A stretch of DNA of 64,000 bases from Hemileia vastatrix (lineage: Eukaryota > Basidiomycota > Pucciniomycetes > Pucciniales > Zaghouaniaceae). The DNA lies in contig JASXTE010000016.1 of NCBI GenBank assembly GCA_030280995.1, positions 23,630,501 to 23,694,500 of the forward strand, written 5' to 3'. Of the stretch, positions 11,187 to 53,945 are shown piece after piece. Under the pieces are notes generated by a model. It had not been told where the DNA came from. It worked only from the letters and a program-made list of their open reading frames with translations, and made no database searches. The position numbers and the translations under genes were made by a program. The stretch's first letter is position 1, and each line of letters starts with the position of its first letter.

Positions 11187-11301
11187 AGGAAAAAAAAATT
11201 ATAGGCTTCTTAAAAGACAATAAAAGCTAATTAACAATTAATTGTATTCCATTATGTATTGGAATTCACATGAAGAATACAAGAAAATAAAAGGATCATG
11301 T

Positions 11302-12222
11302 TGTAGAGAATATTATAGTACTTTCTATTATCCTTTACCAAGGCAGAGGGACAGAAACTAGAAAGAAAAATCCTTTTCCCTTTACAAAACCCAGGTTAAA
11401 TAAATTTTCTACAGAGATTTAGAAAGCCTCTAAATAAAATTTCCTACCAAACTTCTTGACTTCTTAAAAATTGAAGAAGGTAGCCCCTTGACAGACCAGG
11501 GAAAATCATAAAAACTGAAATGAAGAGTAGAGTATAGACCAGATAAAAATGCACAACTATACTGTATTGGCTGGAATAAAAATAAAAACAATACTTGTTT
11601 TAGGTTGCAAATATACACCAGGGAAAACAGTTACAAGTTTTAATATCACTGAAGAAATAAACTTGTACTAAGCTTTGACCAATGTTGCCACAAAAAATTG
11701 GCAGAAAGAGAGTGAGAAGTAAAAGCTCACACTGATCAGATGATGAATATCATTGCCCCACAGTGTCACTCAATTCATGCACAGATCTCTAAAGATCTAA
11801 CAAAAATGACTATTCTACATACAAAAATGCATAAAAAAACTTCAACAAACAGCTTCATAGCTTCCTAAAATAAAGGCAGGTGGACTACCTAGCTAAGCAT
11901 ACTACCCAAAACCCATGCAAACACTCTAAAACTCATAGACACCACAAAAATCACCAAAAAAATTGAAAAACAGTAAATTAATTACTAATTCATGGGAAAA
12001 AATATATATAAATCATACCATAATTCATGAAAAAAGTAGGTCAATCTAACAGACCCTATCAGTACTTAATCCTGGTAAAACCCCAAACACATAAAATTCC
12101 CAAGGCACTCATAAAATACCCAGTAATATTAGCAAGACTCAAAATCAAACCATTCTTAACCTAACTACTAAACTCGCACCAAATATGTAGAGAAAAGGTA
12201 CTATCTATGTTAATATACCAAA
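11302..12222 (-). mobile_element. Diverged 3' LTR of a Gypsy element related to M
   Basis: Starts TGTAGAGAATATTATAG on the plus strand and ends at ACCAAA next to TCCTCCCTC, which is the reverse complement of the polypurine tract seen in M and G. Along its length it can be matched, with many differences, to the M 3' LTR at 23328-24378 (shared landmarks: ACCAAGG near the start, CTTGACT, GGTAGCC, GCACAA). It is older than the M LTRs. The matching internal sequence continues for some 500 bp (next entry) and then stops, so this is a truncated element. Confidence 0.65.
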
Positions 12223-12720
12223 TCCTCCCTCAAATTTAGAATGTCCTCATTCCTGTCAGACATCTTACCAACTTCATTGTAGATGAATCCCTGAGAATAC
12301 TGCACAGACAGAAAAAAACGGCAACTAGAAAATTGGTTTTTTTCAAATACTGAATTGAATCAATTCAGTATGTGATCTGAAATTTTCATACAGTTGCAAT
12401 ATATTTTCCCCTGTGCTGTATTTTAAATAACCTTATCTACCTCGTCAGTGAGATTTTTCATACCTAAAGATCTTTATGTGATAGAAAGTCTTTCAAAGAC
12501 AAACACCACTGCCTTCATCACCAACTGAGCCTGAACCCTCTGGATCTTCTATCTATATTCAGCCCAATCCTGGCTCTTATTCACCCAAAAGACCTATATC
12601 TCTCATTCATATACCCAAATTATTAAAAAGATTCCATTGACTTAAGAAGGGCATGAGAACCACTCTTGCTTCTCTGTCCACTGCTTCTACCCTATTTGAG
12701 AATGAGTTTTTCTTTTCTAA
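12223..12720 (+). pseudogene. Decayed homologue of antisense gene A beside the LTR
   Basis: Directly after the polypurine tract (12223-12232) the plus strand reads AGAATG as at 24394 in M. An ATG (12283) is followed by Asn-Pro-stop-Glu-Tyr-Cys, which lines up with Met-Gly-Pro-Cys-Gln-Tyr-Cys of gene A (first Cys turned into TGA). Near 12505 comes PLPSSPTEPEPSGSS, matching PLSSEAASPPPQPGPSS of gene A. Stops and frameshifts break it. Its importance is that an independent copy of the family carries the same antisense gene in the same place. A 25-bp near-perfect palindrome at 12347-12371 lies inside. Confidence 0.55.
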
Positions 12721-23250: not shown

Positions 23251-23327
23251 TAACAAAAAGTAGAATAACAGTAGAGTAAAATATTAAGAGGTATGGTATC
23301 ATTTACCAGAATCACATTGTAGAAAAT

Positions 23328-24378
23328 CCTATAGTAATAGCTATAGGCCTTGACCAAGGGAGTTGGAGTAAGCCTGGAGAGAAAAACCCTTGGCCCTTTG
23401 CAAAATACCAGGTAAGATTTATTTGCTACAGCAAATTAGAGACTGTTACAATACCCCTTCCAACACATCTTGACTGTTTTACAAGTCAAGAAAGTAGCCA
23501 ATAGCAGACCACTGAGAACCAAAGAACCAGAAAACATGAAATGTAGAGAAATCCACACCAGAAACCAAAGACACAGTGCACTTGTTGCACAAACACAGCA
23601 AAATACTTGATGTAGGCAGCAAAGCTACAACAGAGAAATCAGTTGCCAAAGTTCAGTTAAATGAAGAACTAACCTTGCAACAAACACAGCCAATTGTGGC
23701 CAAAAAAACAGTGAAAAATAAGTGAGAAACAATGATATAATTACCAGATGGTTTTATGATAATTAAGGTTGCCCCAAACTGTCTTATTCAGTATGTACAC
23801 ACAGACCACCTATCTAAAAATCCATGCACAGCAACTAATTTGGCACTTTTGAGAGCCAAATTGAATAAAAACCCTCTAGAAATGCTCCCCAGCCTTCTAT
23901 AACTGAGGTGGGATGACCTCCCAGAAGCCAGAAAACCACCAAAAACATCTAATAAAGCCCAAAATACTTAGAAAAATCCACCACAACTACAAAAAACCCT
24001 TAAAACACAAAATTAAGCATTGACAAATTTGAGACATAAAATATCGAGCCAATTTAGCTCTACTTAATTTTATTAAGCACTTAACTCAAAGACTTTAGGT
24101 TAGCCCCTAAAACACAAAAAAAATTATACAGCTATCTTTTAGAAATGAAAAATGAGGAAATGACCCCTTAAAGCTTGGAATATAAAAAATATCAACAAGA
24201 TGTCAGTTATAGAGAAAAACCGGGGCTATCCAATCGTAGTACCCACATACCCATAGTCCCAAAATTCACTGAATAATACCAAAAATTACACATAATTCTT
24301 CAACCAATGTCAATTAAGACAAAGAAAAATAGTACCAAACAGACCCCCAAAGGCCTCTGACAATGTTGGAAGACCACA
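23328..24378 (-). mobile_element. 3' LTR of element M
   Basis: 1051 bp. In element orientation it runs from TGTGGTCTTCC (24378) to GGATTTTCTACA (23328). It matches the 5' LTR of M around the Copia insertion and the 5' LTR of P. A plus-strand TATAAAAA at 24181 lies about 215 bp upstream of antisense gene A and is a candidate promoter element for it. Confidence 0.85.
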
Positions 24379-24388
24379 TCCTCCCTCC
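24379..24388 (-). other. Polypurine tract of element M
   Basis: Minus strand GGAGGGAGGA directly before the 3' LTR. The same tract precedes the 3' LTR of G (42489-42498). It would prime plus-strand DNA synthesis. Confidence 0.75.
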
Positions 24389-24396
24389 AATTGAGA

Positions 24397-25064
24397 ATGT
24401 ACACATTCTCCTTCATCACATCCACCATGTTCAGCTTTCTTTTTAAATCTGCCTCTGACATGGGCCCTTGCCAATACTGTATTGACAACAATCTGATCTC
24501 CACCATCACACCACCAGCTCATCCATACAGAACCTCCTGTGATGTCTTCCAATTCAGAAAGAAAACTTGCTTCAGACCTGTTCCATTATCATCTGAAGCA
24601 GCTTCACCTCCACCTCAACCTGGTCCATCTTCCACCAGAACCAAAAAATCCAGGCCATCCATCCTGACACCCATATTAGTCAACAAACTACACCCTTCAA
24701 AAAAGAGTGCCAACACCACTACAGAAACTAATTCCACCATTCTTTTTCCATCTGATGGTAAAAACTTTTATTCCTTCCTTCTACTTTTAAAGATGATGAC
24801 TTCTCAGTTCCTCCATCTTCTGGCAGTGATGATGACAATTTAGGATCCATTGAACAACCAACACCTAACCACTTTCCCACCATTAAGGCCAAGTTCCAAC
24901 AACACTCCTCTGAACAAAAACACCTTCTACTAAGCTATTTCCAATCCACTCCTGCTAGAAATCCACAGAACCTTAAGAAAAGGAAACACCTCATCAACCA
25001 TTTCAAGGCTAATGCTGAACACTTTGTTTCATCTCTTGATTCTCTTCTGCAACTTGACTCTTGA
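24397..25064 (+). CDS. Antisense gene A: zinc-cluster-like protein encoded opposite to gag-pol in the M 3' region
   Basis: Starts at ATG 24397, only 18 bp from the LTR edge. It is open to 24757, then shifts frame and is open again from 24793 to the stop at 25062-25064, about 210 residues in all. The shift is either a candidate 35-nt intron (24758-24792, GTAAAA to TTTTAAAG, unusually short) or a one-base indel. Cysteines at residues 25, 28, 48 and 58 (PCQYC, then SCDVFQFRKKTC) resemble a zinc cluster; gene B has the same positions. Next come a Pro/Ser/Lys-rich stretch (SPPPQPGPSSTRTKKSRPS), an acidic DDDDFSVPPSSGSDDDN and a helical C-terminus ending LDSLLQLDS. Unlike M gag and pol it has no premature stop. 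Function unknown; a DNA- or RNA-binding role is inference. Confidence 0.55.
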
Positions 25065-25690
25065 TTGAAACTTTTGACTTAGAAATGAAAATTCTTGACC
25101 ACTCTCCAGAATTACTGAATGTAGCCAATCATAAGAAATTCCTCAGTTTACAGTCTTGGGGGACTCATCTTCAGTTTTAAGTCTTGGGTGACTAACAGCC
25201 CTCATTTTGTAGTCTTGGGGGACTCAAAACCTAAATCATAAAGACAGAACCAGAGATCAAACCATCTAAGACTAAAGAAATAAACTAACATTCTAGGGTA
25301 ACTGTTCTACAGAGCAGCTAGCTCATCAGTTACCCTCAAACTTCCCTTAACTAAATTCAGAGACTCCCCCTTGGATGCCCTCTGCTAGAATAACACCAAC
25401 ACCACATTATCAGCTTGTAGTCCTAAAGGACTCAACCATAAAACCATCATCAGTTTATAGTCTTGGGGGACTATACGATTTTTGAATTTAAAGTCTTTAT
25501 GGACTGGCACAGTGTTTAGTTTAATTCTTGACACACCTTCCACACTTTGCATAAAAAATACAGAGCCAATTCCATCCACAATACTCCACAACCAACCTAC
25601 TGAACTTCTACTTTCTGTTCATCATCTACCCATCACTGATAAAAATTTTCTTATATCTCTTTTCTCTTCATTGTTGTCTCATCACAGATC
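25065..25690 (-). other. M 3' region between antisense genes: hairpin motifs
   Basis: Seen from the element strand it holds the 22-nt hairpin motif at 25144-25165 and 25451-25472, weaker copies near 25177, 25210, 25407 and 25485, and the larger hairpin with arms AGGGTAACTG/CAGTTACCCT at 25295-25304 and 25327-25336. The plus-strand ORF 25482-25943 overlaps gene B in another frame and is not supported. Confidence 0.6.
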
Positions 25691-27031
25691 ATGGCTGGAT
25701 CTCCTACTTTTGACCCAGATCTTCCATGCCTCACTGCTCCAAAGGACTATGCTTGAAAACAGTGTATCCACATGTGCAGACCTTGAACTTTCACTCTTCC
25801 AACTCCTGAGACCAAACTTTACAACAGGGCCTGTGATTCTTGAAACTTCAAAAATAAAAAATGTGACAGAGACCCCACTTATCCTATACCACCACCTTCA
25901 CCTTCACACAAATACATCTCTAGATCTTGTACCAGATCCCTAGAGCTTAGTCCTGCTTCTTCTTCTTTATCTTCAGCTCCATCCAGAAGATCCTGCTGCT
26001 CAGTTCCCAGAACACTCTCCAAAAGATCTGATTTATCCTCTCAAGAAACAGACTTTATCTCTGCAAATTCAGCTCAAACAGCTTCAAAATTAGCTCCCAG
26101 GATTCTAGACTGCGTCCAGGTGGCCCACCCAACATTGGGCAGCCCACCCACCTTGCTAGGAAGCAAAAATCAGGCACAAAACTTTCAAATTCAGCCATAA
26201 AACAGCCAAATTTCACCAAAAAACACCCATAATTCCAGGAAGAAACCTCCTAGTGCTCCCAGAGCAATGCAATCAAAAATTTCTTAGTCCAAAAATTCCA
26301 AAAATTCCAAAACTTCTAAAAGACCTGCCAGAGGACCCCAAAAAGACACCAGAGCACCAAACACTGCTCCCAGAAAAAATTCTCCCTCTCAATCAAGAAG
26401 AAGCAACTACACCTCTCCTCTTACATCCAATTATTCATCTGAAAGTTCAATTTCTTCCAGAACTTCATCCAGAAGAGACCAATCAGCTTCCAGGTCACCT
26501 TCTCCTGCTCCATCCTACAAAATCCCTGGTACTTCACCACCAGTACCCAACCAAACTGAACCAAGCAACAATATCAACAACAACAACAACAGCCCTACTT
26601 CTCCAACTAGGCCACAGGAGCATCCTCATTTTAGTTCATATTCTCAACACCACTTAGAGGATGACAAAGAAAATCCATACCTCCACCTGGTTGATCCTCC
26701 TACTACATCCATTCAAAATCCTTCAACAGTCCAAATTCCGGCCCCTTACAAATTTGATGAGCTTCCAATCTGTAAGTAACAAATTAATTCATCCAATTTC
26801 TTCAACAGAAAAAAATTACTAATCCAATTATTCTTTTTAGTTGGCACCCCACCTGCTGAAGCTACTATTGGGATTAGCCAACCTCTAGAAACCACCTTGA
26901 CACTGGATTACGCCAATATGAAGCAAAACCTAAGTATGATGTACTCAAACATGCTTAAGTCCTTTTCTCTTCATGGGCCATTGAATGAAATTGAGAGAAA
27001 CCTGAGAGAACAACTTCTTGACGACCACTAG
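25691..27031 (+). pseudogene. Antisense gene B: spliced zinc-cluster-like protein, paralogue of A, with premature stops
   Basis: ATG 25691 (MAGSPTFDPDLPCLTAPKDY). One frame runs to 26771 with five stops (TGA 25754, 25784, 25841; TAA 26198; TAG 26285), two of which fall at a likely Trp and a zinc-cluster Cys. Cysteines at 13, 25, 29, 48 and 58, with CDS-stop-NFKNKKC matching half a fungal zinc cluster. Then a long Ser/Arg/Pro-rich tail (SSRTSSRRDQSASRSPSPAP), an Asn run and KFDELPI. A 69-bp intron (26772-26840) follows, then exon 2 VGTPPAEATI-like sequence (26841-27031) with a helical end ERNLREQLLDDH. Lies antisense inside M. Function unknown. Confidence 0.6.
26772..26840 (+). other. Spliceosomal intron in antisense gene B
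   Basis: Donor GTAAGT at 26772, branch-site match TACTAAT at 26817-26823 (17 nt from the acceptor), pyrimidine-rich TTATTCTTTTTAG acceptor at 26840. Splicing keeps the reading frame across a phase-1 junction into exon 2. On the element strand these signals are reversed, so the intron would not be removed from genomic retrotransposon RNA. Confidence 0.75.
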
Positions 27032-28588: not shown

Positions 28589-31266
28589 TCAATCTTTTTC
28601 ACTTCTAGTGCCTCTTGGGTAAAATCTCTTCACCTGATAAGCAGCCACTTTCTTCTTTAAGACTGCACCATCTAACTCCTCCAAAACATAAGAACCTCCA
28701 GAAACCTGAGATCTGACTTTGTAAGGTCCATTCCATCTGTCAGCAAATATTTCTCCCGACTTACTCTCCAAGCTTCTATTATACACCAAAACTAAACAAC
28801 CAGGTTTCAAGGGATTCCTGTGTCTATGAGCCAACTTCTTGTCCCAGTATATGACTGATTAATTTTTTATCTTCATCATTATAGAGTATGCCTTCTCTTG
28901 ACATTCCTCTCTACGTTTCAACTTTTTCATCCTGGCACAGAGCAAATCTTTTGTTGATCATACATCATCCCAATCAATTCCAAGATAAGAGACAGCTTCC
29001 AAGTCCACTGGAAGAACATCTTTCTTCTCAAAAATTAATTCATAAAGGGAATAGCCAGTTGTCGTTTTCACAGTGACACTATCAGCAAATAACACAAAGG
29101 GTAAATAATGCCTCCACTTTTCAGAAATATCTCCACACATCTTCATCAAACCATTCTTGATAACTTGATGGCCTCTTTCAACCATGCATTCAGCTTTGGG
29201 ATAATAAGGTATACCACTATAACTTTAGAGCCAATGCTTGCAACAGCTTCTTTGAATTCAGCTCAACACTCTGGCCCACCATCAACTGTCACCAAATTCA
29301 TCAACCCATAACTAAACACCCATTCCTTCTTTGAAACCTCTGCCACATTTTTGGAGGTCAAATTAACCAGAGGAACTGCCTCAACCCAACCAGACAAATC
29401 ATCCCTGGAAAAAATCAAAAATTTATATCTTCCCTCTTTAATATGGACAAAATCAAGACAGACTCTTCTAAACACAGTTGATTCACCAGTAGCACAGAAA
29501 ACCTCTTTAGGTCTCAAGTGACTACTTCTTTGATATTCTTCACAAGATTGAACCCAACCCTGAACAGCCAAATTCATATCTGGCCACCAAAATCTGTCTG
29601 AAACTCTTCTATAAGTTTTCCCAAAGCCTCTATGACCAAGGTCTTCATGCAAAGATTTTAACACCAGCTCTTGAACCTTCTCCTGAGTCACCAACACTTG
29701 AGGATTTGGATTTCTCCTTCTCATCAACCTCCTTCATGAAACATAGAAGCCAGAACTTTTTTTCTTGATTTCCATCCAATTATCATCATCACAACTATAT
29801 GGCCTCTCCAAGGTTAACAGATATTCAACCATTGTACAATAAAACCCAGACTGACCCCAGGTCTCATCTTTAAAATCCAAAAAAACAACATCCAAGGGTA
29901 AAACCCTGTCATTAAAAACACCAGTTTGAACATAAGCCACTTGACCAGCCCAACCAGGACACCAATCCCTAAACCTGGGTACATCCTCTTTCTTCCACTG
30001 AAACTTAAGAGAATCCAGTTCACTAACAAAAAAACCATTATCTAATTCTGAGACATCCCAAAAAACAACCCCATCTTCATCAACAAAGACATCCTGACCA
30101 CCAGAGTCAAGATCAGATCCATCCAGTTTAACCTCTTGGGGGAGGAGAGGACAATCTTTGAGTTTAGCCTCATGGAAGAGAAGAGAAAAATATTCAGTAC
30201 CCTTTGTGCTTACCCTAACCACTGGGACATCTTCATCAAATTCTTTAGATCTGAATCTTCATCTGTGGGTGGTCCTCTTGATAAACCATCAGGCATTGTA
30301 AAAGTTTTTCCAGGTTTGTGTACCAGGTCAAAAGAGAAATGCTGAATAAATGCCACCTACCTAGTCATTGGAGCATTTGGAAGACTAGTTGTATTGATTA
30401 TTTGAACCAGAGATTTGGCATCCACCTGCAGCTCAAAATGCTGCCCCCACAAAACAGTTTTCAGCTTCTTTAAAAATTTTGCTACATCACACAACTCCAA
30501 CTTAGTTTGAGAATATCTAGATTCAACCTCATCAAATACCACAGACTCAAACCTTAATGGCCTGACCCTCCCAGTTTTATCTTCCTGAGACAAAACAGCA
30601 CCAGCAGCAATATAACTTGAGTCCATTTCCAGATAAATTTTTCCAGCTCCCACATCATAATCCAACTTGATACCCACTCTGCATCTCTCCTGTTCAACCT
30701 CCTTTAAGGTGAGGCCAATAAAGAATAATCTTTAATAAAAATTCTGACATACACACAAACCCCCAAATATTCCCTGACTTCAGTAGTATTATTATACCTT
30801 GTCCATGACTGAATTTTATTAAATTTTTTTTTGCCATAATACTCCCCTCTTTACATACCACTTGACCCGAAATTTCCAGAGCAGGAACACAAGAACAAAA
30901 TTGTGACCCAGAAATGGTCAACCCAGCCTCTTCAATTATAAACAATACTCTCTCTAGAGTGATTTCATACTCCGAAACAAACCTCCTTATACTTAGGTTC
31001 TACTTCAGAACTTCATTCCCATAATCAGTGGATGGTCCTTTGATTCCACCATCATCAATAAAAATACCAGCATGAGTAGGAACCTCATCCTGAAAAATCC
31101 AAGCCATTTGTGATTGATATACTGCTACTGAATTAGTTGCTACTTGAGGCAATCTATAGAGCTTAAACCTTCCCAAATGAGTCTCAAAAGCTATAAATGA
31201 CCATGAATCCATAAGAAGTTCACTTTTATCATAACCACCCATAATATAACCCAAACCATAACACAC
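28589..31266 (-). pseudogene. Element M pol, 3' half: RT end, RNase H, integrase
   Basis: Minus strand, continuing from the G insertion point at 31266. RT: YGLGYIMGGYDKSELL, LPQVATNSVAVYQ, AGIFIDDGGIKGP (FIDD active site kept; 31266-31000), then EEAGLTISGSQF. RNase H: LEMDSSYIAAGAVLSQEDK, YSQTKLELCDVAKF (30677-30357). Spacer with the hairpin motif (30124-30145). Integrase: LHEDLGHRGFGKTYRRVSDR, FWWPDMNL, CEEY, DDLSGWVEAVP, LVTVDGGPEC (29727-29263), EGMVERGHQ (about 29185), then WNGPYKVRS, the GPY module, to RFYPRGTRSEKD at 28589. Broken by frameshifts and stops. Confidence 0.85.
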
Positions 31267-32400
31267 TGTGGTAGCCTAAAGTTTAGTACGGCACCTAAGT
31301 ACGTAAATGGAGTTATTACGGCGTGCAAGATTGGCGTTATTATTTTTTATAAAAGGGATTTATTTAATTTATTGGAGTTTTAAATATGAAGAAATTGGTC
31401 ACGAGCAAATGCCTACACGAAAACAATTTATTTTACGGAGAAAACTTATTTTTACGGTCTGAAAAATTTATAAGTATTAAGTCGAGTCACTCAAGAACCT
31501 TGGGAAATTTTCCCAGAATTTTTACTATTTTTCTTATATTTTTAAATGAATTTTAAAGTTTTATAGGAATATTTACGTTTTCAAAAATTACTTAACTTTG
31601 ATCAATTCTCACGGGGTAATTAGAGCTGCGCAGACTACGAAATTTAGTTTGGTATGTAAAGGGGAAGTAGCTCTATTATGTGTAATTTTTCTAGATTTTT
31701 TATTATGGTTTTAAGGTTCTAAATTGAGTCCGGAAGTCCGGACGGACTCCGTACGGACTCCGTTTCGACTCCGTACGGACTCCGCTTTGACTCCGTACGG
31801 GCTCCGGATTGACTCTGGAAGAGCTCTGGAGGGGAAAACTTAGGCACGTGACTAGGAATACTTAAGCGCTTTTCAACTCGAAATTGAGGGGGGGGGACAC
31901 ATCATACAGCTTAATCATTAACTACCACAGTCTCATTTTTTATTACTCAACAAATTAAAATAACTTGTAATACCCTTATAACATTATTATTTTTTACATA
32001 ACATTTTAGAAATACAATTCAACATGTTTAAATAACACTTCATACAGGGTATCTTTAGAAAGGTCTTCATCGCTGGGACTTGATTATTGCTGTCTCATAA
32101 AAATTCAAATTATTATAAAAACATAAAAGTCAATCTTTACAGATCTTTCACTGGTACACCTTAATTGTTGTCATCAGTATTTCTTTTATCAACAGCCACT
32201 TTCTTTAAATCTCAATAAGCGTTAATTATTTTAGAGTTTCATTATTTTTATCAATCAGATCTAAGTAGATTGGTTAGCTTAGTGATTTTGAATTCCCATT
32301 TTGTTATTTTTATTGGAAGGACGGGGTTTTCAGCTAAATCCACACATCTCCTCCGGATTCTGCTTACAGCAAGGCGACTGTAAGAGTTTACCTTACCATA
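31267..32400 (+). mobile_element. 5' LTR of element G
   Basis: 1134 bp, TGTGGTAGCC at the left and TTACCTTACCATA at the right, with short inverted ends TGTGGTA/TACCATA (one mismatch; TG...TA rather than TG...CA). TATAAAAG at 31348-31355 is a candidate promoter box. A tandem array of about 11-bp units like GGACTCCGTAC lies at about 31735-31815. The ORF at 32301-32555 is an artefact of the LTR end. Confidence 0.9.
31348..31355 (+). promoter_or_regulatory. Candidate TATA box in the G LTR
   Basis: TATAAAAG followed by GGATTT, 81 bp inside the LTR. The same sequence is in the 3' LTR near 42580. Typical of a pol II LTR promoter; not tested. Confidence 0.45.
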
Positions 32401-32402
32401 GT

Positions 32403-32419
32403 TGGCGCCCAACGTGGGG
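32403..32419 (+). other. Primer-binding site of element G (tRNA-Lys type)
   Basis: TGGCGCCCAACGTGGGG two bases after the LTR. This is the sequence complementary to the 3' end of tRNA-Lys(CUU) used by some retroviruses. P has the identical 17-mer (55463-55479); M has it with two substitutions. Confidence 0.85.
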
Positions 32420-32576
32420 TTCGATTTCTCTAGCTTTCTTTAAAGACTTACTTGGATCAAGAACGTTCTTAGCCTGCAAGAGGCTTATTTTCAGGAACTC
32501 TAATTGGATTTTTGTTATTGGCCTGCAAGAGGCTTGTTATTTTATCGATTGTTAACGCTTTTCATTACTTATTGGG
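32420..32576 (+). other. 5' leader of element G with two short hairpins
   Basis: Two copies of a hairpin: AGCC-TGCAAGA-GGCT at 32470-32484 and GGCC-TGCAAGA-GGCT at 32520-32534, identical loops and 50-bp spacing, between the primer site and the gag ATG. Position suggests a packaging or translation role; inference only. Confidence 0.5.
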
Positions 32577-35186
32577 ATGTCTTCTTCTGCTGTTGCTTCT
32601 GGATCTTCTAACCCTCTTACTCCCTCAGTTAGAATTGTTTCTTGGGATGGCCCAAAGTTTGATGGGGAGGAGGTTAAATGGTTCATTAGCAGGTATGAAG
32701 CGGCTGCTGCTGTTGATGGTGCTTCCCATGTGGATATGGTGAAGCAAGTTAGATTTTTTATTGCCGATAGGGAGGTGGAAAAAGAGGTTATTGCTATGCA
32801 GGCATTCAAGGACAAGGATTGGGTTAAGCTTTCTAAAGCTATGGTTGATAGATGGGGTGTTAGGTTTACTATGATGGACCTCAATAAAATTGTTGGAGAC
32901 TGGCAAGCAAAAGGTGGTGTTTCTTCTATGGCTGACTTCAAAAAGCTCTGTGTTCAGTTTGATGAAGTGGTGGAATATCTCATACTGGTGGACGAGTTAG
33001 TGCATGAGAACCAAGCAAAAGATTTGTTTTGGACAGCATGCAGCAGGGATATTCGAATGGACGTCTTGAAGGATCTTTCAAGAAAAGATTTGATGAAGGA
33101 ACTTCCTAATCGTGAGCAGAAACTGCCGGCTCTGGAGGTTATCAAAGAGAACATTCAGGCCCATCTCAAGTTATTGGCGTTGGACAAATATCAAGAGTCA
33201 TGCACTCAATATGTTAGCAAGGTTAGCGAAGTTTTGGCCGAAAATAACGATATTATGGTCAAAGCCCAGGAGGCCAAGAAGGCTCAAATGGGATTACCTG
33301 CTGCTAAAGTTGAGGGTAATGTAGATAATAAGATGGTCGATCACCTGGCCGATTTAACTGAACAATTAAAAATATTTGTTCAAGAAACCCAGAAGGCCAA
33401 CAAGGCCCCAATTGCTTCTTCGTCGACGTCGACTTCTTATCAGTCTAGAGGTTATGAATGTCGAAATTATAATGGCAATAACAACGGTAACCGCTTCCCA
33501 GGCAATAGGAGAAATGGTGGGAATGGTGGTAGTAATTATAGAGGTGGCTATGATGAGCCAAAGGTGCGCTCCTATTGTAATAGGAGGGGTCACAGAGCAA
33601 CAGTTTGTTTTGCTCTTGATAAGGATATGGATGCTGGGCGAGTTCTTTTTGATGGTAAAGTTTATAAATTTCCTGATGGTTCGTTCATCAAGCCCAGTGA
33701 TGGACAGTCTCCTTCTGATTTGGTCAGAAGAAGTTTAACGGCTGAAAGGAGAGCCAGATTTGAAGAGGTGACGGATGAAGATGTTAATGCCAAGAGTGGC
33801 AAAAATGGTAATGGTAATGGTGGTAAAGCTGACAAGGGCAAGGAGAAAGAGGTCAGTAAAGCCACATTTTCTACTTCTTTTGGTGTTTTAGAGCTGGCGA
33901 CGGTTGCCCAGGTGGAGGGTAGCTGTATGGCCGGCAAATACGATGTTAATGCTGCTAGAAGAGCAGCTGCTACTAAGGCGAAAAGTAGCATTCAGAGCCA
34001 ATTGAGGGCTAATCCTGGCAAGGCCAATAACAAAGTGAACCCTTACTCTAAGGACAAGATTTCTAGTGCTCAAACTGCCGCCAACAAATTGAACCCTTAC
34101 TCTAAGGACGAATTATATAAAATGCAGAAGGGGATTGCTGATATGGGGCCCCCTAGTTATGGCAAGTTTGATTTAAATGGTGAGCCTATGCCAGAGGATG
34201 ATTCGGATTCTGAGGAGGACGTACCGTTGGCGTCTCTACCCAGACCAAGTTTTAGCGGTCCCATCCCAATGGAGGGTGTAAGAAGGACTAGCGATGGATC
34301 AGGATTAGTGCAAGAAGCTGGTGACGGAGTTAGGGTTATAGAAAGTGAAGATGTTATAATGGGGGGTGAAGATGGCTCGGTTGGACCTCAAGAGGTACCC
34401 AGGGCCAAGGTTGTTAAATCAAAGGTCCAGTATGAGCGGCCAGTAGTTTCTGGTCAAGCTAATGCAATGGACGCAGTTTTGAATAGGGTGAATCAACTGC
34501 AGATTCCCTTATCTTTGGGGGAGTTATTTACAATTAGTCCGGCGCTTGCTGAAAAGCAAAAGAAGCATTTGACGAGGCGTCGGGTTTCCACTGGAGAGGT
34601 GGAATATATTTGTGAAAATGCTGAAAAGTTTGGGGAAGATGTAGATACACATTTTTCCGCTCCCCTGGGTTACCTGGTGGTAACTCTTAACGGTAAAGAA
34701 GTAAAGGCCTTGGTCGATTCAGGGTCTCAAATTAATTTAATTTTATTGGAGCAAGCAACGAGTATAGGCTTGCCAATTAAAAGTGGAACTGGGGGAAACC
34801 TCAGAGGTATTGGAGGGCATGCAACAGAGCTGATGGGTACAGCTGAGCATGTCAGGTTAGGCATTGGTGGATCTGTTGGAAAGGTTCACTTTTATGTGGC
34901 CAGAGGAGCAGTCAAAACTGTTCTTGGTGGTCCTTTTTTGATGGATTTTGAGGCCAGGATAGGGTATCAAGCTGGCATGGGGATTAGTTTGGAGATCACT
35001 GGTGAAGATATGCGGAGGTTACATATGCGGTTAGCGCCTCCTGGAGATGAAGGTTGGGAAACACGGCCAGGGATTACTACTCTGTGCCAGTGTTGTGTTT
35101 GCACCAAGAAGTGGCATATTAAATGGACGGCTTCTGGTGAATTATGTTTGTTGGAAAGGGATGGATGCCCTCATTTTTTGGGGTAG
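32577..35186 (+). CDS. gag-pro: Gag-protease polyprotein of element G
   Basis: 869 codons from ATG 32577, the first ATG after the leader, and aligned with the MASGSS starts of M and P. N-terminal capsid-like region (RIVSWDGPKFDGEEVKWFIS, FTMMDLNKIVGDW, DVLKDLSRKDLMKELP), a Gly/Asn-rich basic stretch, then a degenerate zinc knuckle near residues 331-344 (SYCNRRGHRATVC: the first Cys is missing, the second Cys, the His and the last Cys remain). Central low-complexity region with repeats of NPYSKD. Aspartic protease at the end: catalytic DSG at residues 714-716 (LVDSGSQINLI), and VLGGPFLMDF near 781. Gag builds the particle and protease cleaves the polyprotein. The stop lies three bases after a slippery heptamer leading into pol. 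Confidence 0.9.
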   Translation: MSSSAVASGSSNPLTPSVRIVSWDGPKFDGEEVKWFISRYEAAAAVDGASHVDMVKQVRFFIADREVEKEVIAMQAFKDKDWVKLSKAMVDRWGVRFTMMDLNKIVGDWQAKGGVSSMADFKKLCVQFDEVVEYLILVDELVHENQAKDLFWTACSRDIRMDVLKDLSRKDLMKELPNREQKLPALEVIKENIQAHLKLLALDKYQESCTQYVSKVSEVLAENNDIMVKAQEAKKAQMGLPAAKVEGNVDNKMVDHLADLTEQLKIFVQETQKANKAPIASSSTSTSYQSRGYECRNYNGNNNGNRFPGNRRNGGNGGSNYRGGYDEPKVRSYCNRRGHRATVCFALDKDMDAGRVLFDGKVYKFPDGSFIKPSDGQSPSDLVRRSLTAERRARFEEVTDEDVNAKSGKNGNGNGGKADKGKEKEVSKATFSTSFGVLELATVAQVEGSCMAGKYDVNAARRAAATKAKSSIQSQLRANPGKANNKVNPYSKDKISSAQTAANKLNPYSKDELYKMQKGIADMGPPSYGKFDLNGEPMPEDDSDSEEDVPLASLPRPSFSGPIPMEGVRRTSDGSGLVQEAGDGVRVIESEDVIMGGEDGSVGPQEVPRAKVVKSKVQYERPVVSGQANAMDAVLNRVNQLQIPLSLGELFTISPALAEKQKKHLTRRRVSTGEVEYICENAEKFGEDVDTHFSAPLGYLVVTLNGKEVKALVDSGSQINLILLEQATSIGLPIKSGTGGNLRGIGGHATELMGTAEHVRLGIGGSVGKVHFYVARGAVKTVLGGPFLMDFEARIGYQAGMGISLEITGEDMRRLHMRLAPPGDEGWETRPGITTLCQCCVCTKKWHIKWTASGELCLLERDGCPHFLG

Positions 35187-38100
35187 GAGGGGCTGATCAC
35201 TCTAATGTTGTAATCTCTCCTCAGGATGAGATCCCGGATTGCAATAGGTCAGCTCACTTGGAGATAATTCAAGTGGATTCTCAATTATTTTCTGTTAATA
35301 TTACTTTGGAGTGCAAATATGTTATGGACTTTTCTATATGTTTGTTGGATTCACCCTGTTTTTCTATAAAATTTAAAAATGGTGAAAAAGGCAATATGGG
35401 CCAAATTAGGTTGGATAAAAATTGGAAGGGTATGTTTTATGACCTCCAGCAAGAGGGTAAACTGCAATTAACTCATCAAAACTCAATAAAAAATCTCAGT
35501 ATAAGTAAAACACAAAAAAATAATTTTTGTGAAAATTCATTTCCGGACCTCCAGCAAGAGGTTAAACTGCAATTATCTCCTTCTATCACGGACCTCCAGC
35601 AAGAGGGTAAACTGCAAATATCACATCAAAATTCGATTAAAAATCTTAGTATAATTAAAACCCAAAAAAATAATTTTTGTAAAAATTCAATTCCGGTTCT
35701 CCAGCAAGAGGTTAAACTGCCAACTTTCTTTACGGGTGATTTACTGTTGGATAAGGGAAGAAAAGTTGTTGGAAAATCTGTTTATAAATTAGACGAGGGA
35801 AAGGAGAAAAGGGTAAAATTTAAAAATGAAATTAAATATTTTTCTAATTTTTCTTATTCTGATTCTGGCGATGAAGAAGATTCATTTGATGAAAGTTTTA
35901 ATGGCGATACAAAAGTAAATGATTTACCTCAAGTTTATTTAGATGTGGACGCAGCCAAATATAAGAAAGTAGCAAATAAAGTTCGACCTATTAATGAACC
36001 GCTACCTGCTGAATTAAATCCACCTTTGAGAAGACCAAGGTTATCAAGAGATCCTTATGAAAGTCCCTTGGTAAAGAATCCGCCTGAATTTTCTGAGACG
36101 TCAAGAATTACTTTTGAGAGACTGGGTGTTGTTAATTTTGGACCTGATGGTTGGTTGTCTGGAGAAGAGAAGAAGTTGTTGTTGGATGTGATGGTCAAGC
36201 GAGAGAAGGCCATTGCTTTTGTAGAAGAGGAGAGGGGTGTGTTGAAGCATTCCTATGGGGAGCCTTACAAGATTCCTGTGGTATGTCATGAACCGTGGCA
36301 GCAGAAACCGATTCCTATTCCGGCTGCATTAAAAGAAGCCTATATTGAAGTTGTCAGAGAACAGATACGCACTGGACTGTATGAGCAATCAACGTCAAGT
36401 TATTCTAGTCCTGTATTTTGTATCAAGAAACCGAATGGCAAGCTTAGAGTTGTTCATGATCTTAGGGAATTAAATAGGGTTACAATAAAGGATGCTGGGA
36501 TACCACCTAGTGCTGAGGAGTTTGTTGAAGCGTTTTCAGGGAGAGTGTGCTATGGTTTGGGAGATATTATGGGTGGATATGATGAGAGAGAGTTACATCC
36601 GGACTCAAGGCCTCTCACTACATTCGATACGCCACTTGGACGTTTACAGTTAACAAGATTACCTCAAGGAGCAACAAATTCGGTTGCAGTTTATCAAGCT
36701 CAGATGGCTTGGATCCTTCAAGATGAAATTCCACAATATGCTGGAATCTTTATAGATGATGGAGGAATTAAGGGACCAACAACCGACTATGATAACCAGG
36801 TGTTGGAAGAGAATCCCGGGATACGCAAATTCATTTGGGAGTTTGCAATTACTTTAGAAAGAATCTTGTTTCGAATTGAAGAGGCTGGTTTAACTATTTC
36901 AGGTTCAAAATTTTCATGTTGTGTGCCAGCCTTAGAAATATTAGGCCATGTGGTATGTAGAGAGGGTAGGATTATGTCCAAGAAGAAAGTTAACAAAATT
37001 CAGTCCTGGCCAAGACCCAAGAATACGACCAAAGTTAGAGGGTTTTTAGGTGTTTGCGTATATGTTAGAATGTTTATCAAGGACTTTTCTTCATTGGCAG
37101 CTCCATTGAGACGGTTAACGAGAAAGGATGCAGACTGGGAGTGGGATGAAGAGTGTGAGAAGGCGTTTGTGAAGTTGAAGGAGGTTGTGGGGAAGGATTT
37201 AGTCCTGCACAAGTTGGATTATGGAAAAGATGCTGGCAGAATTTATTTAGCAGTTGATTCAAGTCAGGTTGCAGCTGGGGCGGTTTTGTCTCAGATGGAT
37301 AAAGCTGGTTACATCAGGCCAGTTAGGTATGAATCTGTAGTATTTACTGAGGTCGAATCAAGATATTCTCAACCGAAATTGGAATTATGTGGTGTGGCGA
37401 AAATACTGAAGAAACTTCAGCATATTTTGTGGGGGCAACATTTTGAGTTGCAAGTGGATGCAAAATCGTTAATCCAGATGATTAATTCCCCAAGTTTACC
37501 CAACGCACCCATGACAAGATGGGTAGCTTTTATTCAACATTTTTCGTTTGATTTAGTTCATAAGCCTGGCAAAACTTTTACTATGCCAGATGGTTTATCA
37601 AGGAGACCACCCACTGAAGAAGATTCAGACTCAGAAGAGTTCGATGAAGATATACCTATTATCAAAGCCAGCACTAAAGGAGCTGAAGACTTTCCATACC
37701 TCCCCCATGAGGTTAAACTGGCAGGACTATTGTGTTTAGATTATGATGATGATGACCTCCACCAAGAGGATAAACTGGAAAATAGTTTTTATGTTAATAA
37801 AGGTGTTGGAAAAGGTGTAGATAAATTCGGCAGAGAGGAGGTAGAAGAAGATGTGGTGTATGTAGAGGAAAATGGATTGGTAGTGTGGGATAGTAGTAAA
37901 TTAAGGAATGGTGTATATGTTGGAGAATTAGAGAATTTAAATAAAAAGGTGGATAAAGAGAAAGAGGTATTTTCAAATACGGTTTTCGAAGGATCCAAAG
38001 GTTCAGAAGAAAAACGTCGACATAGCTCGATTAAAGATTTATTTAGGGGTCAACGATTATTGGCTCATTCATGTGCAGGTGATATTGGTGATAGAGAAGT

Positions 38101-39436
38101 CCCTATTGATGTTATATTAATCGATTTTCAAGATGAAGTCTGGGGTCAGACTGGTTTTTATTTTTTGTTAGTCATATATTTGTTGACTTTAGAGAGGCCA
38201 GAAGATTGTGAAGACAATGAATGGGTGGCTATCAAGAGGAAGTCATCTACGTTTTACCTATCTGGTCGTCGTTTAATGAGGAGGAGGTATCCAAATCCTC
38301 AAGTAGTTATAACTCAACAGAAGGGGCAAGAATTAGTTTTGAAATCACTGCATGAAGATCTCGGGCATAGAGGCGTTGGAGAAACGTTTAGAAGAATTTC
38401 TGATCGATTTTGGTGGCCTGGCATGAAGATGGCTGTTAAACAGTGGGTTCAGTCATGCGAAGAATGTCAAAGACAAAGTTATTTAAGGCCAAAAGAACCT
38501 GGACGCGCGACCGGTGAATATACGCTCTTTGGAAGAGTTAGTTTAGATGCCGTTCATATAAAAGAGGGACGGTATAAATATTTAATTGTGGCCAGAGATG
38601 ATTTATCTGGTTGGGTAGAGGCAGCGCCTCTTATTAATTTAACTGCCAAAAATGTGGCAGAATTTTTTTTGAATAATTGGGTATATAGGTATGGGGTGAT
38701 GAAGTTGGTAACGGTAGATGGAGGTCCTGAATTTTGGAAAGAGTTTAAAGAGGCCATATTGAAAGTTGGATCAAAGGTTAGGGTAGCAACCCCATATTAT
38801 CCTGAAGCTGAAGGCATGGTTGAAAGAGGGCATCAAGTTATTAAGGATGCTTTAGTTAAAATGTGTGGGACAAGTGCCGAAAAGTGGAGGCACTATTTAC
38901 CTTTAGTTTTATTTGCTGATCGAATCACTGCCAAAAGGACGACCGGATTTTCACCTTATGAACTCGTTTTTGGACAGAAAGCAGTTTTACCGGTTGATTT
39001 AGAAGCTGAATCATATCTTGGAGTTGACTGGGACATGGTCAAAACTACTGAAGAATTATTGTGTGCAAGAATGATGCAGCTAGAAAAGAAAGAAGAATAT
39101 TTAGAAAAGGCATATTTGCGGATGATGAAGATCCGAAATCAATCAGTTAGATATTGGGATGAGCGGTTGGCACATCGATTAAGGAAACCTTTGAACCCAG
39201 GAGATATGGTCCTGGTGTATAATAGGAGTTTGGAAAGTCAGTGGGGAAAGATGTTTGCAGATAGGTGGAATGGACCGTATAAAATCAAGGAGCAAGTTTC
39301 CGGCGGTTCATATGTGCTAGAAGAGTTGGATGGAGTAGTATTAAAGAAGAGGGTAGCGGCCGATCAAGTGAAACGGTTCTATCCTAGAGGCACCAGGAGT
39401 GCCGAAGTCTTCCTCCGCAATGAGGATAAACTATGA
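35144..39436 (+). CDS. pol: Pol polyprotein of element G: reverse transcriptase, RNase H, integrase
   Basis: 1430-codon frame, -1 relative to gag-pro; the ATG at 35144 lies in the overlap, and translation by frameshifting at 35174 is more likely. Residues about 100-200 hold four LQQEGKL/LQQEVKL repeats that coincide with the hairpin motif. RT: YSSPVFCIKKPNGKLRVVHD, LPQGATNSVAVYQ, FIDD at 536-539 (instead of YxDD), then IKGP and NPGIRKFIWE. RNase H: AVDSS (Asp 705), Asp in QVDAKSL. Integrase: H-x4-H (HEDLGH, 1070) and CEEC, Asp 1135 (SLDAVH), Asp 1192 (TVDGGPEF), Glu 1227 (MVERGHQ), GPY module at 1377. No chromodomain seen; the protein ends NEDKL inside a hairpin motif. All catalytic residues present. 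Confidence 0.93.
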   Translation: MFVGKGWMPSFFGVGGADHSNVVISPQDEIPDCNRSAHLEIIQVDSQLFSVNITLECKYVMDFSICLLDSPCFSIKFKNGEKGNMGQIRLDKNWKGMFYDLQQEGKLQLTHQNSIKNLSISKTQKNNFCENSFPDLQQEVKLQLSPSITDLQQEGKLQISHQNSIKNLSIIKTQKNNFCKNSIPVLQQEVKLPTFFTGDLLLDKGRKVVGKSVYKLDEGKEKRVKFKNEIKYFSNFSYSDSGDEEDSFDESFNGDTKVNDLPQVYLDVDAAKYKKVANKVRPINEPLPAELNPPLRRPRLSRDPYESPLVKNPPEFSETSRITFERLGVVNFGPDGWLSGEEKKLLLDVMVKREKAIAFVEEERGVLKHSYGEPYKIPVVCHEPWQQKPIPIPAALKEAYIEVVREQIRTGLYEQSTSSYSSPVFCIKKPNGKLRVVHDLRELNRVTIKDAGIPPSAEEFVEAFSGRVCYGLGDIMGGYDERELHPDSRPLTTFDTPLGRLQLTRLPQGATNSVAVYQAQMAWILQDEIPQYAGIFIDDGGIKGPTTDYDNQVLEENPGIRKFIWEFAITLERILFRIEEAGLTISGSKFSCCVPALEILGHVVCREGRIMSKKKVNKIQSWPRPKNTTKVRGFLGVCVYVRMFIKDFSSLAAPLRRLTRKDADWEWDEECEKAFVKLKEVVGKDLVLHKLDYGKDAGRIYLAVDSSQVAAGAVLSQMDKAGYIRPVRYESVVFTEVESRYSQPKLELCGVAKILKKLQHILWGQHFELQVDAKSLIQMINSPSLPNAPMTRWVAFIQHFSFDLVHKPGKTFTMPDGLSRRPPTEEDSDSEEFDEDIPIIKASTKGAEDFPYLPHEVKLAGLLCLDYDDDDLHQEDKLENSFYVNKGVGKGVDKFGREEVEEDVVYVEENGLVVWDSSKLRNGVYVGELENLNKKVDKEKEVFSNTVFEGSKGSEEKRRHSSIKDLFRGQRLLAHSCAGDIGDREVPIDVILIDFQDEVWGQTGFYFLLVIYLLTLERPEDCEDNEWVAIKRKSSTFYLSGRRLMRRRYPNPQVVITQQKGQELVLKSLHEDLGHRGVGETFRRISDRFWWPGMKMAVKQWVQSCEECQRQSYLRPKEPGRATGEYTLFGRVSLDAVHIKEGRYKYLIVARDDLSGWVEAAPLINLTAKNVAEFFLNNWVYRYGVMKLVTVDGGPEFWKEFKEAILKVGSKVRVATPYYPEAEGMVERGHQVIKDALVKMCGTSAEKWRHYLPLVLFADRITAKRTTGFSPYELVFGQKAVLPVDLEAESYLGVDWDMVKTTEELLCARMMQLEKKEEYLEKAYLRMMKIRNQSVRYWDERLAHRLRKPLNPGDMVLVYNRSLESQWGKMFADRWNGPYKIKEQVSGGSYVLEELDGVVLKKRVAADQVKRFYPRGTRSAEVFLRNEDKL
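35174..35180 (+). promoter_or_regulatory. -1 frameshift slippery site between gag-pro and pol (element G)
   Basis: In the gag-pro frame the codons are CAT TTT TTG GGG TAG, giving the heptamer T-TTT-TTG, an X-XXY-YYZ site one base from the HIV-1 U-UUU-UUA. Slipping back one base puts ribosomes in the pol frame (Phe-Phe-Gly-Val-Gly), which is open. An 8-bp stem can form 4 nt downstream (AGGAGGGG 35185-35192 with TCTCTCCT 35214-35221, two G-U pairs). Element P has T-TTT-TTA at the same place. Confidence 0.75.
35443..35719 (+). repeat. Four hairpin motifs inside the pol 5' part (element G)
   Basis: Copies at 35443-35464, 35548-35569, 35593-35614 and 35698-35719. Each is CCTC (TCTC in the last), loop CAGCAA, GAGG, then G/T-TAAACTG. 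In the protein they read LQQExKL. A larger 150-bp repeat (copies 1-2 and 3-4 with HQNSIKNLSI and KTQKNNFC between) shows duplication. Confidence 0.9.
37699..37777 (+). repeat. Two hairpin motifs between RNase H and integrase (element G)
   Basis: 37699-37720 (CCTC, loop CCCCAT, GAGG, TTAAACTG) and 37756-37777 (CCTC, loop CACCAA, GAGG, ATAAACTG). They read PHEVKL and HQEDKL in the protein. P has five and M at least two in the same spacer. Confidence 0.85.
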
Positions 39437-39670
39437 AATTTCTTAAATTTTATGGATTCCTCCGCAATGAGGATAAACTATGATATCAATGAAACTTTAT
39501 GGATTCCTCCGCAATGAGGATAAACTATGAAATTTCTTAAAATTTATCAACTCCGAAATGAGGATAAACTACAATTTTAATGACTTTTGTTAAATTTATA
39601 CCTCCGCAATGAGGATAAACTATGATGTTTATAAAAATCTTATGACGACCTCCGCAACGAGGATAAACTA
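39412..39670 (+). repeat. Cluster of six hairpin motifs at and after the pol stop (element G)
   Basis: 39412-39433 (its last bases encode the pol C-terminus and stop), 39459-39480, 39506-39527, 39550-39571 (left arm mutated), 39601-39622 and 39649-39670. All are CCTC, loop CGCAAT (CGAAAT, CGCAAC in two), GAGG, ATAAACTA. Confidence 0.9.
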
Positions 39671-39885
39671 TCTTCTTTTTTTTATCAATTAATTTACTAT
39701 CGTTACACTGCATATGGGCAACGAAACTGTGATGAAACATAACGAAATACGAGAAAACCTTCATTGAAAATTTTCAAAATTTAAAATTCTTAAAATATGG
39801 GTGAAGATAGTGTTGGAAAAATTTTAAAATTTATTGGAAGAAGTGTTCACAGGGGAACCTTCTTAATTAAATATTGGCAAGTGTG

Positions 39886-39926
39886 GGGGTAATTGATGGG
39901 CTGGCTGCTCTATACACAATTACCCC
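39886..39926 (+). other. Conserved 3'-region hairpin GGGGTAATTG (element G)
   Basis: Arms GGGGTAATTG (39886-39895) and CAATTACCCC (39917-39926) around GGGCTGGCTGCTC. M and P have GGGGTAACTG/CAGTTACCCC with the same centre, so the T-A pair here replaces a C-G pair there. Confidence 0.8.
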
Positions 39927-39993
39927 ATAATGTTCGTTTCCAAAATTTTCCCTGTTTCTAGTTGAATCCTGGCTTTGTCTTTTAATTTTAGGA

Positions 39994-40015
39994 AGTCCAC
40001 TAAGACTATAAACTG
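39994..40015 (+). repeat. Hairpin motif, AGTC/GACT type
   Basis: AGTC, loop CACTAA, GACT, ATAAACTG, about 70 bp after the GGGGTAATTG hairpin; P and M have the same arrangement. Confidence 0.85.
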
Positions 40016-40147
40016 GAACGAATCAAGAGACACCGCTCTCAACGCCAGATTCAAGATTTTTTTTATTTTATTTTGTTTTTGATTTTTTATGTTAGATTGT
40101 GATTTCTTTTCTTTAATATAAATTATGAATTAATGTAAAGGTGATGT

Positions 40148-40345
40148 TCACTGGTGGTCTCTAATCATTTTTATAAATTGGAGGGAGCACACCCAGTGAT
40201 CATCATTATAAAAATTATCTTCTAAAAACTTTCATTTATTTTCTTTTCTTTTCAATTTCTCAAAATTGTGTAACCACATCAAGTTGCACTTGGATGTGGG
40301 TATGATGTCGAGGGTACGGCTCATCAAATGGCCGGGGGGCATCTT
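40148..40345 (+). other. Two further conserved hairpins in the G 3' region
   Basis: TCACTGG (40148) pairs with CCAGTGA (near 40194); between the arms lies GGAGGGAGCACACC, as in P and M. CCACATC (40274-40280) pairs with GATGTGG (40293-40299), followed by GGCTCATCAAATGGCCGGGG near 40318. Both hairpins recur in the P and M 3' regions in the same order. Confidence 0.7.
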
Positions 40346-40700
40346 TTAAAATTTTATTTTAAAATTTTTTTTTTTTTTTAGTACTTTTTTTATCTTTCTT
40401 TTCACATTCATTTATCTTTCTTTAAAATTAAATTTTAACTTTTATTTCAAAACTATCTTTTCTAAAATCTTTTATTTTAAATTTAAAAAAAAAATTAAAA
40501 TTAAAATTAAAAAAAAAAATAAAATAAATAAATAAAATAAAAATAAAATAAAAATAAAATAAATAAATAAAAAATAATAATAATAATAATAAAAAAAAAT
40601 TAAAATTAAAATTAAAATTTATTAATTAAATGAAAATCATTATTATATTTCTTAGTTTTATTTTTTTAGTTTTCATTCTTTTTAGTTTTATTCATTTAGT
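40346..40700 (+). repeat. Low-complexity A/T stretch in the G 3' region
   Basis: Runs of T then of AAAATA and AATAAT units; no other content. M (27275-27540) and P (63100-63200, 63320-63400) have similar stretches after the same hairpins. Confidence 0.85.
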
Positions 40701-40765
40701 TTAGACAGGAAACAGGGTCTAGGAGAACTCAATACTTATGGGATTTTACTTCAAGATATATGTTT

Positions 40766-41240
40766 AGTCCTCCAAGACTTTAAACTGGCTACTGCTCAAG
40801 ACTTTCTTTAAGGTTTTTTTTACACGTATTTTGGAGCTGTTAGTCCTCCAAGACTTTAAACTGGCTACTGTTCAAGACGTTCTTTAAGGTTTTTTTTTAC
40901 ACGTATTTTGGAGCTGTTAGTCCTCCAAGACTTTAAACTGCCTACTGCTCAAGACTTTCTTTAAGGTTTTTTTTACACGTATTTTGGAGCTGTTAGTCCT
41001 CCAAGACTTTAAACTGGCTACTGTTCAAGACGTTCTTTAAGGTTTTTTTTACACGTATTTTGGAGCTGTTAGTCCTCCAAGACTTTAAACTGGCTACTGT
41101 TCAAGACGTTCTTTAAGTTTTTTTTTTTTATACAAATTTTGGAGCTGTTAGTCCTCCAAGACTTTAAACTGGCTAATTTTCAAGACTTTCATTAAAGATT
41201 TTATAATGGAGCTGTTAGTCCTTCAAGACTTTAAACTGAA
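40766..41240 (+). repeat. Seven tandem 67-79-bp units, each starting with a hairpin motif
   Basis: Motifs at 40766, 40842, 40919, 40995, 41071, 41150 and 41217: AGTC, loop CTCCAA (CTTCAA in the last), GACT, TTAAACTG. They are followed by CTACTGYTCAAGACTTTC, a T run, ACACGTATTTTGGAGCTGTT. Period 76-77 bp for most units. Confidence 0.95.
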
Positions 41241-41315
41241 TTTCAAGGATAATCAAGATTTTATGGATATTTTCGGAGATGGATTTTTTTTATTTTTTTT
41301 ATCAATCAAATGTTA

Positions 41316-41823
41316 GGTCCACCAAGACCTTAAACTGGAGTGTTATCAAATGTCAGGTCCACCAAGACCTTAAACTGGACTGTTATCAAGCTGTTGGGTC
41401 CACCATGACCTTAAACTGGATTTCTTATCGATTAAATGTTTGGTCCACCATGACTTTAAACTGGTAGTTCATTCATTGTTTAGTCCACTATGACTTTAAA
41501 CTGGAAAATTAATATCTGCAGGATAATTCAACATTCATTGGACCACTATGGCCTTATACTGGATTACTTGTCGATCAAATGTTTGGTCCACTATGACATT
41601 AAACTGGATTATCAAATTTATTCAATCTTTGGTCAAGCCTAGGCCTTACTTAGGAATATATCAAGATATTTATGCACTTAAACGATCTTTGGTCCACCAA
41701 GACCATAAACTGGAAATCGATTATATGTTTGGTCTACCAAGACTTTAAATTGGAATGTCAATCTTGTTTGGATAACTCAATTCAATCTTTTAATTTATCA
41801 CTGTCCCCTAAGACTCTAAACTG
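41316..41823 (+). repeat. Ten dispersed hairpin motifs, GGTC/GACC and AGTC/GACT types
   Basis: 41316, 41356, 41397 (GGTC, loops CACCAA or CACCAT, GACC, TTAAACTG); 41442 (GGTC/GACT), 41482 (AGTC/GACT, loop CACTAT), 41691 (GGTC/GACC); weaker at 41540, 41585, 41731 and 41802. Stem bases change in pairs while loop and tail stay the same. ORFs at 41279-41872 are artefacts of these repeats. Confidence 0.9.
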
Positions 41824-42488: not shown

Positions 42489-42498
42489 GGAGGGAGGA
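42489..42498 (+). other. Polypurine tract of element G
   Basis: GGAGGGAGGA immediately before the 3' LTR, identical to that of M. Confidence 0.85.
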
Positions 42499-43597: not shown

Positions 43598-43601
43598 ACA
43601 C

Positions 43602-53940: not shown

Positions 53941-53945
53941 GCCCC

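Follow-up and report, generated by a model that had tools for sequence, protein, structure and literature searches.

We analysed a 64,000-nt stretch of the Hemileia vastatrix genome (contig JASXTE010000016.1, positions 23,630,501 to 23,694,500; hereafter the window), which has a G+C content of 36% and is a nest of long terminal repeat (LTR) elements inserted into one another. One of them, a Ty3/Gypsy element on the minus strand designated M, carries two candidate genes, A and B, both antisense to M and both located between the end of pol (28589) and the polypurine-tract-like (PPT-like) stretch that adjoins the 3' LTR (24379/24378; Table 1). Gene A starts with an ATG at 24397, only 19 nt from the LTR edge, and its first frame of 148 aa is open to 24843; gene B starts with an ATG at 25691. 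The two genes share a four-cysteine motif, B contains ordered intron signals and also in-frame stop codons, and a relative of A lies in a second, decayed element copy, C12. The region thus has the position and strand of an additional open reading frame (ORF) of the antisense, pol-to-3'-LTR type, and it is likely to be coding. With moderate confidence, we interpret A and B as accessory genes that run antisense in a Ty3/Gypsy family of the rust type; they are probably duplicates of each other, and in this copy both seem dead or close to it.

The predicted products of A and B share the motif C-x2/3-C-x18/19-C-x9-C, with cysteines at residues 25, 28 (A) or 29 (B), 48 and 58. These are the only cysteines of A, while B has nine in total. 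A scan of all six frames of the whole window returned 14 matches to the motif; 12 fell in a microsatellite (9821-9929), and the other two were A and B. Shuffling of B residues 1-75 produced the motif, in any register, in 71 of 200,000 trials, and the local alignment of A residues 1-70 with B residues 1-75 was equalled by 3 of 2000 shuffles. Position, strand, motif scan and N-terminal alignment agree with the original prediction, made from the bare sequence, that two related antisense genes with common cysteines lie inside a Gypsy element. The two are probably duplicates of a single ancestral gene.

The same prediction had called the proteins zinc-cluster-like. The fungal Zn2Cys6 zinc cluster has six cysteines in a set spacing; A has only four and gave no Pfam match up to E 10, and we therefore rejected this assignment. 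The zf-CW domain has a spacing of about C-x2-C-x18..20-C-x10-C and a conserved Trp. The spacing in A is similar, but A contains no Trp and matched no Pfam family up to E 10, so it was not assigned to zf-CW either. No TRP28 domain (PF04195) was found when both frames of A and the B segments 25844-26197, 26288-26770 and 26840-27031, which begin after the first 51 codons of B, were scanned against Pfam. Single-sequence structure models of A (mean predicted local distance difference test, pLDDT, of 57.6 and 63.1) contained a strand and a hairpin and were too weak to define a fold; their comparison with the PDB gave no reliable match. We regard the four-cysteine region as a putative small metal-binding-like domain.

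The predicted intron of B contains GTAAGT at 26772, TACTAAT at 26817-26823 and TTTTTAG ending at 26840. Its removal would eliminate an in-frame stop and keep the frame as far as the terminal stop codon, whose last base is 27031. A strict intron pattern matched once in the 64 kb, both strands included, and this match was the B intron; 100 shuffles of a 10-kb part gave none. The intron has a G+C content of 22%, against 43-45% in its 100-nt flanks, and coincides within a few bases with the lowest-G+C 69-nt stretch of the gene. Having GT-AG ends, a branch point, a pyrimidine tract, A+T richness and a restored frame, it appears to be a good spliceosomal intron, as had been predicted.

Gene A may also be interrupted. 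Its first frame stops looking coding near 24757, and the 148-aa product has no helical tail. The second open frame, 24762-25064, contains an acidic stretch, a KKRK cluster and, as judged by eye, a helical-looking end, and the tail of A is likely encoded there. A candidate intron at 24758-24807 (GTAAAA...CTCAG, weak donor, 30% G+C) would link the two frames at a place comparable to that of the B intron and in the same phase. At the aligned place, C12 has a 48-nt stretch with 21% G+C that ends in TTTTTAG; the C12 frames are incompatible with a splice there unless further indels are assumed. The simpler rival is a frameshift in a decaying gene, and we give the candidate intron about even odds of being real. 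The earlier view of one intron-bearing gene thus holds for B and may understate the case, given the unproven candidate in A. It had also assigned Ser/Pro-rich tails and short helical ends to both proteins; the Ser/Pro-rich character was found, and the helical end does not belong to the 148-aa frame of A. The isoelectric point (pI) of spliced A is 9.4 and those of two B exon-1 pieces are 9.7 and 9.9. Such basic, Ser/Pro-rich products would fit a nuclear role without proving one.

Gene B is interrupted, a point missing from the original prediction. It has in-frame stops at 25754, 25784, 25841, 26198 and 26285. The first is three codons ahead of Cys25, and the second and third lie between Cys25 and Cys58. 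Because of these five stops, this copy of B cannot yield the protein under the standard code. The stops at 25754, 25784 and 25841 are all TGA and have an identical local context, CTTGA. Repeat-induced point mutation (RIP) was rejected as the source of the stops in B, since only 17 of the 51 differences between the two M LTRs are transitions.

The A/B strand has an excess of open frames. Its four longest open frames sum to 642 codons, a value reached in none of 1000 dinucleotide shuffles (maximum 544), and the longest open frame of the opposite strand has 77 codons. We also compared frames with a codon usage model trained on three intact ORFs of the window, with which all scores were negative. 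The frame of B ranked top of the three in all three scored exon-1 pieces by modest margins; for 26288-26771 it scored -0.182, against -0.301 and -0.442.

The relative of A was found in C12, which extends over 11.2-12.8 kb and runs into another repeat at 12790. Its LTR-like sequence at 11220-12005 is 62% identical to the M LTR (E 5e-55), and its PPT-like stretch also matches that of M (E 1e-7). The A-like stretch is collinear with M and has the same place and orientation as A; it aligns in two blocks, each scoring above all 2000 shuffles. Three occurrences of the PPT-like motif were seen in the window, at C12, at M and at element I, a more distant Gypsy relative of M that is inserted into it. 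C12, M and element T, a close kin of M, have a common type of LTR, whereas the LTRs of I matched none of the C12, M or T LTRs. No relative of A or B was found in the pol-LTR region of I, so A belongs with the M/T/C12 family; with its relative in C12 matching it in location and direction, A is more than a one-off insertion. Among copies in the window with M-type LTRs and a recognised 3' end, A or a relative of it is present in both (M and C12) and B occurs in one of the two. An insertion at 63411 interrupts the region between pol and the LTR of T about 400 bases before the counterpart of B. Homologues had been expected beside other LTRs of the family; this was borne out for A, and for B none was seen outside M.

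Several results weigh against the interpretation of A and B as accessory genes. Expression and splicing of both are predictions from sequence. The five stops interrupt B, and the frame starting at 25692, read over exon 1 of B, also has only five. Two of the strand's four longest open frames, 25461-25943 (160 codons) and 26160-26657 (165 codons), lie outside the frame of B, so the excess of open frames does not by itself single out B and supports the two genes themselves only weakly. The openness of that other frame may reflect base composition or a second coding frame. Codon usage was tied between frames for B exon 2, which is also acidic (pI 4.8), and hardly favoured the frame of A (-0.259, against -0.269 for the next frame). 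Gene A would require a splice or else carries a frameshift, and like B, with its stops, it is a putative working gene at most. Beyond the N-termini, the A-B alignments were weak: 59 of 2000 shuffles were as good for exon 1, 283 of 2000 for the full length and 1320 of 2000 for the exon-2 parts of the two genes, where the alignment did not rise above chance; the case for relatedness of A and B consequently depends on the cysteine region. The protein search returned no homologue of A or B, from a database that contains rust pol proteins. Within the window, no B relative was seen outside M, and no relative of A or B was found in the 3-kb pol-LTR region of I, an element with intact gag and pol. Finally, the differences between A and C12 were spread evenly over codon positions 1, 2 and 3 (44/94, 45/94 and 48/94; p 0.32), so protein-level constraint on A is not demonstrated; a pair of old, decayed copies offers little chance of detecting it.

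The even spread over codon positions would fit an antisense unit that works as RNA, with a spliced transcript that pairs with sense RNA and feeds silencing or regulation, the ORFs being by-products or relics. The stops in B and the second frame, as open as that of B, point the same way, and there is a precedent in Blumeria hordei, in which spliced antisense long non-coding RNAs (lncRNAs) over transposons have been described (PMC10648671). However, a non-coding RNA would not be expected to preserve a common cysteine spacing in A and B, nor to produce an excess of open frames on one strand. We consider this explanation unlikely, but it is the strongest of the alternatives.

Chance is a much weaker contender. 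G makes up only 11-12% of A and B, and a G-poor strand could yield long frames on which the motif and the intron fell by coincidence. The longest single frame, of 165 codons, was matched in 44 of 1000 dinucleotide shuffles and is not in the frame of B, which is broken five times, no less than its neighbour. On the other hand, neither the four-frame sum nor the cysteine motif was readily reproduced by shuffling (0/1000 and 71/200,000), the sole strict intron match sits at the G+C minimum of the gene, and C12 contains a relative of A. Taken together, these results make coincidence very improbable. A one-off capture of host genes by a single element copy, to which the absence of B relatives outside M in the window would correspond, is barely credible: for A it was rejected because a second, much diverged copy has a relative of A next to its LTR, matching in position and orientation, and the protein search recovered no host relatives although its database holds rust pol proteins.

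On the accessory-gene reading, a promoter activity within the 3' LTR would initiate an antisense transcript from integrated DNA. With its first ATG 19 nt from the LTR edge, the mRNA of A would have to start within the LTR, or else translation would have to begin at a later Met. The spliceosome of the host would then take out the intron or introns. These would not be spliced from the replicating form, because they are reversed in the sense genomic RNA. The original prediction considered antisense orientation to be the only way in which an element gene can keep an intron. We rejected this, since splicing of sense transcripts is documented, as described in PMC3735527, for the LTR elements Ogre, CRR, Bagy2 and BARE1, and the unspliced RNA can be the form that is reverse-transcribed; antisense placement is one way among others. 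The resulting proteins would combine the four-cysteine domain with basic, Ser/Pro-rich linkers and a short C-terminal segment. From within the nucleus they might influence transcription of the element itself, a role proposed for plant antisense ORFs and comparable to the action of HBZ of human T-cell leukaemia virus type 1 (HTLV-1) on Tax-dependent transcription. A regulatory function is what we infer for them.

A near-palindromic repeat, AGTCTTGGNGGACT, occurs in the same regions. It was found at 24 places with at most two mismatches, against 1.3 expected, and every site falls in the pol-3' LTR interval of M, I or T. In I, several copies are within a 76-bp tandem array (40764-41202). The ends of the repeat co-vary in some copies (AGTC..GACT, GGTC..GACC). 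One may speculate that this rust Ty3/Gypsy lineage carries a duplicated antisense pair, both members with introns in the same phase and at comparable places, whose four-cysteine proteins, outside Pfam, bind the lineage's own AGTCTTGGNGGACT repeat. Antisense placement would shelter the introns, the genes would be readable only from integrated nuclear DNA, and the whole would form a self-regulating switch. We regard this scheme as a long shot.

Antisense genes at this place are known from other elements. In Botrytis cinerea, the Boty-like Ty3/Gypsy element carries brtn, an additional gene in antisense orientation that lies between its pol and 3' LTR (Zhao et al., 2011, as cited in PMC7264820 and PMC8365987). 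Compared by description only, brtn and the A/B region are alike in being antisense extra genes in the pol-3' LTR interval of a fungal Gypsy element; they differ in that Boty has one gene and M two, and the chromodomain-bearing Boty belongs to an ascomycete (PMC4227169). In plants, antisense additional ORFs (aORF-3R) are reported from Retand, Grande (gene23) and RIRE2 (PMC7264820, PMC11963269). In Retand, an antisense ORF coding for TRP28 was present in 97% of the studied clusters, and the pol-LTR regions span 2.9-6.6 kb, about half with tandem repeats (PMC11963269). The corresponding region of M, at 4.2 kb, resembles these plant regions, which often contain tandem repeats, and a nuclear or DNA-binding role has likewise been suggested for the plant products. 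Unlike the Retand ORFs, the scanned parts of A and B yielded no TRP28, and the descriptions of the plant ORFs in PMC7264820 and PMC11963269 do not mention introns.

The HBZ gene of HTLV-1 is transcribed from starts within the 3' LTR, its transcripts undergo splicing, and its product inhibits transcription that depends on Tax or c-Jun (PMC1459196). HBZ resembles the model for A and B in being a spliced antisense gene, with only the 19-nt distance between ATG and LTR pointing to an LTR start in our case; it differs in being, by name, a bZIP protein and in belonging to a retrovirus rather than a fungal element, and A and B are so far gene predictions read from DNA. To our knowledge, HBZ has no four-cysteine motif of the A/B kind. 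LTR-driven antisense RNA is also reported from a mussel LTR element (PMC10974842). In the powdery mildew B. hordei, predicted introns of the transposon-antisense lncRNAs were verified in two of eight that were cloned and sequenced (PMC10648671). These are intron-bearing transposon-antisense transcripts in a plant-pathogenic fungus, as those predicted for A and B would be, but they are reported as non-coding, whereas A and B have long open frames and a common motif.

Element-borne antisense accessory genes are therefore of a known kind, reported mostly from plant Gypsy elements and one fungal family in the literature cited here. The case described here is a pair of related genes, at least one of them with a good intron, in a decayed element copy of a rust-type lineage. 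If this is correct, the intron-bearing pair would be an independent case in the transposon-rich rusts. A comparison could then ask whether the proteins are under constraint and whether the introns mark genes that are read only from integrated DNA, and it would open the self-regulation of fungal LTR elements to comparative study. RIP-like signatures are reported to be absent from the subphylum of the rusts (PMC12210899), and other controls of transposons matter there for this reason.

Table 1. Features of the A/B region and of the surrounding nested elements (positions in the window)
Feature	Position	Strand	Remarks
Gene A exon 1	24397..24757	+	or whole first frame, open until 24843; four-cysteine region 24469-24570
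Gene A candidate intron	24758..24807	+	50 nt, phase 1; alternative, frameshift
Gene A second open frame (putative exon 2)	24808..25064	+	
Gene B exon 1	25691..26771	+	five in-frame stops; four-cysteine region 25763-25864 followed by a basic, Ser/Pro-rich part
Gene B predicted intron	26772..26840	+	69 nt, phase 1
Gene B exon 2	26841..27031	+	ends with stop codon
C12 LTR (inferred)	11220..12222	-	aligns with M LTR at 11220-12005 and again at 12170-12277, near PPT-like tract
C12 relative of A	12417..12718	+	decayed, frameshifted; beside PPT-like stretch at 12223
AGTCTTGGNGGACT repeat sites	25152-25505, 28069-28340, 39994-41815, 62469-62742		antisense to element
M 3' LTR	23316..24378	-	
M PPT-like stretch	24379..24392	-	adjoins 3' LTR
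M pol, 3' part	28589..31266	-	split over several frames
Element I	31267..43597	+	Gypsy related to M, inserted into M; intact gag and pol
M gag and 5' part of pol	43594..48290	-	resumes past inserted element I; broken
M 5' LTR	48395..54392	-	interrupted by Copia; outer end cut by element T
Copia element	48849..53945		sits within M 5' LTR
Element T	from 54397	+	close kin of M, inserted into M

The LTRs of M differ at 51 of 897 aligned sites and those of I at 10 of 1029, indicating that M is old and I young. Element I encodes a gag of 869 aa and a pol of 1430 aa. Among the matches listed in the protein search, the best for its pol were 75% and 73% identical, and Puccinia striiformis and P. coronata proteins were up to 71-72% identical to it, with about 40% of the query aligned. 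At its pol end, I contains tandem repeats of about 47 bp (39410-39671). A further repeat was found twice, at 45777-46588 in the gag/protease region of M and at 63411-64000 in the pol-LTR region of T; the copies are 75% identical, as measured over 45961-46588 and 63411-64000. The copy at 63411 starts with TGTCACCGG and may be an LTR. Outside M, a 249-bp repeat occurs in four copies (10925-11173, 16531-16779, 18841-19089 and 21684-21932) that are 79-94% identical to the reference copy. Between two of these copies lie ORFs (17606-18556) that resemble what we take to be a decayed Harbinger-type transposase.
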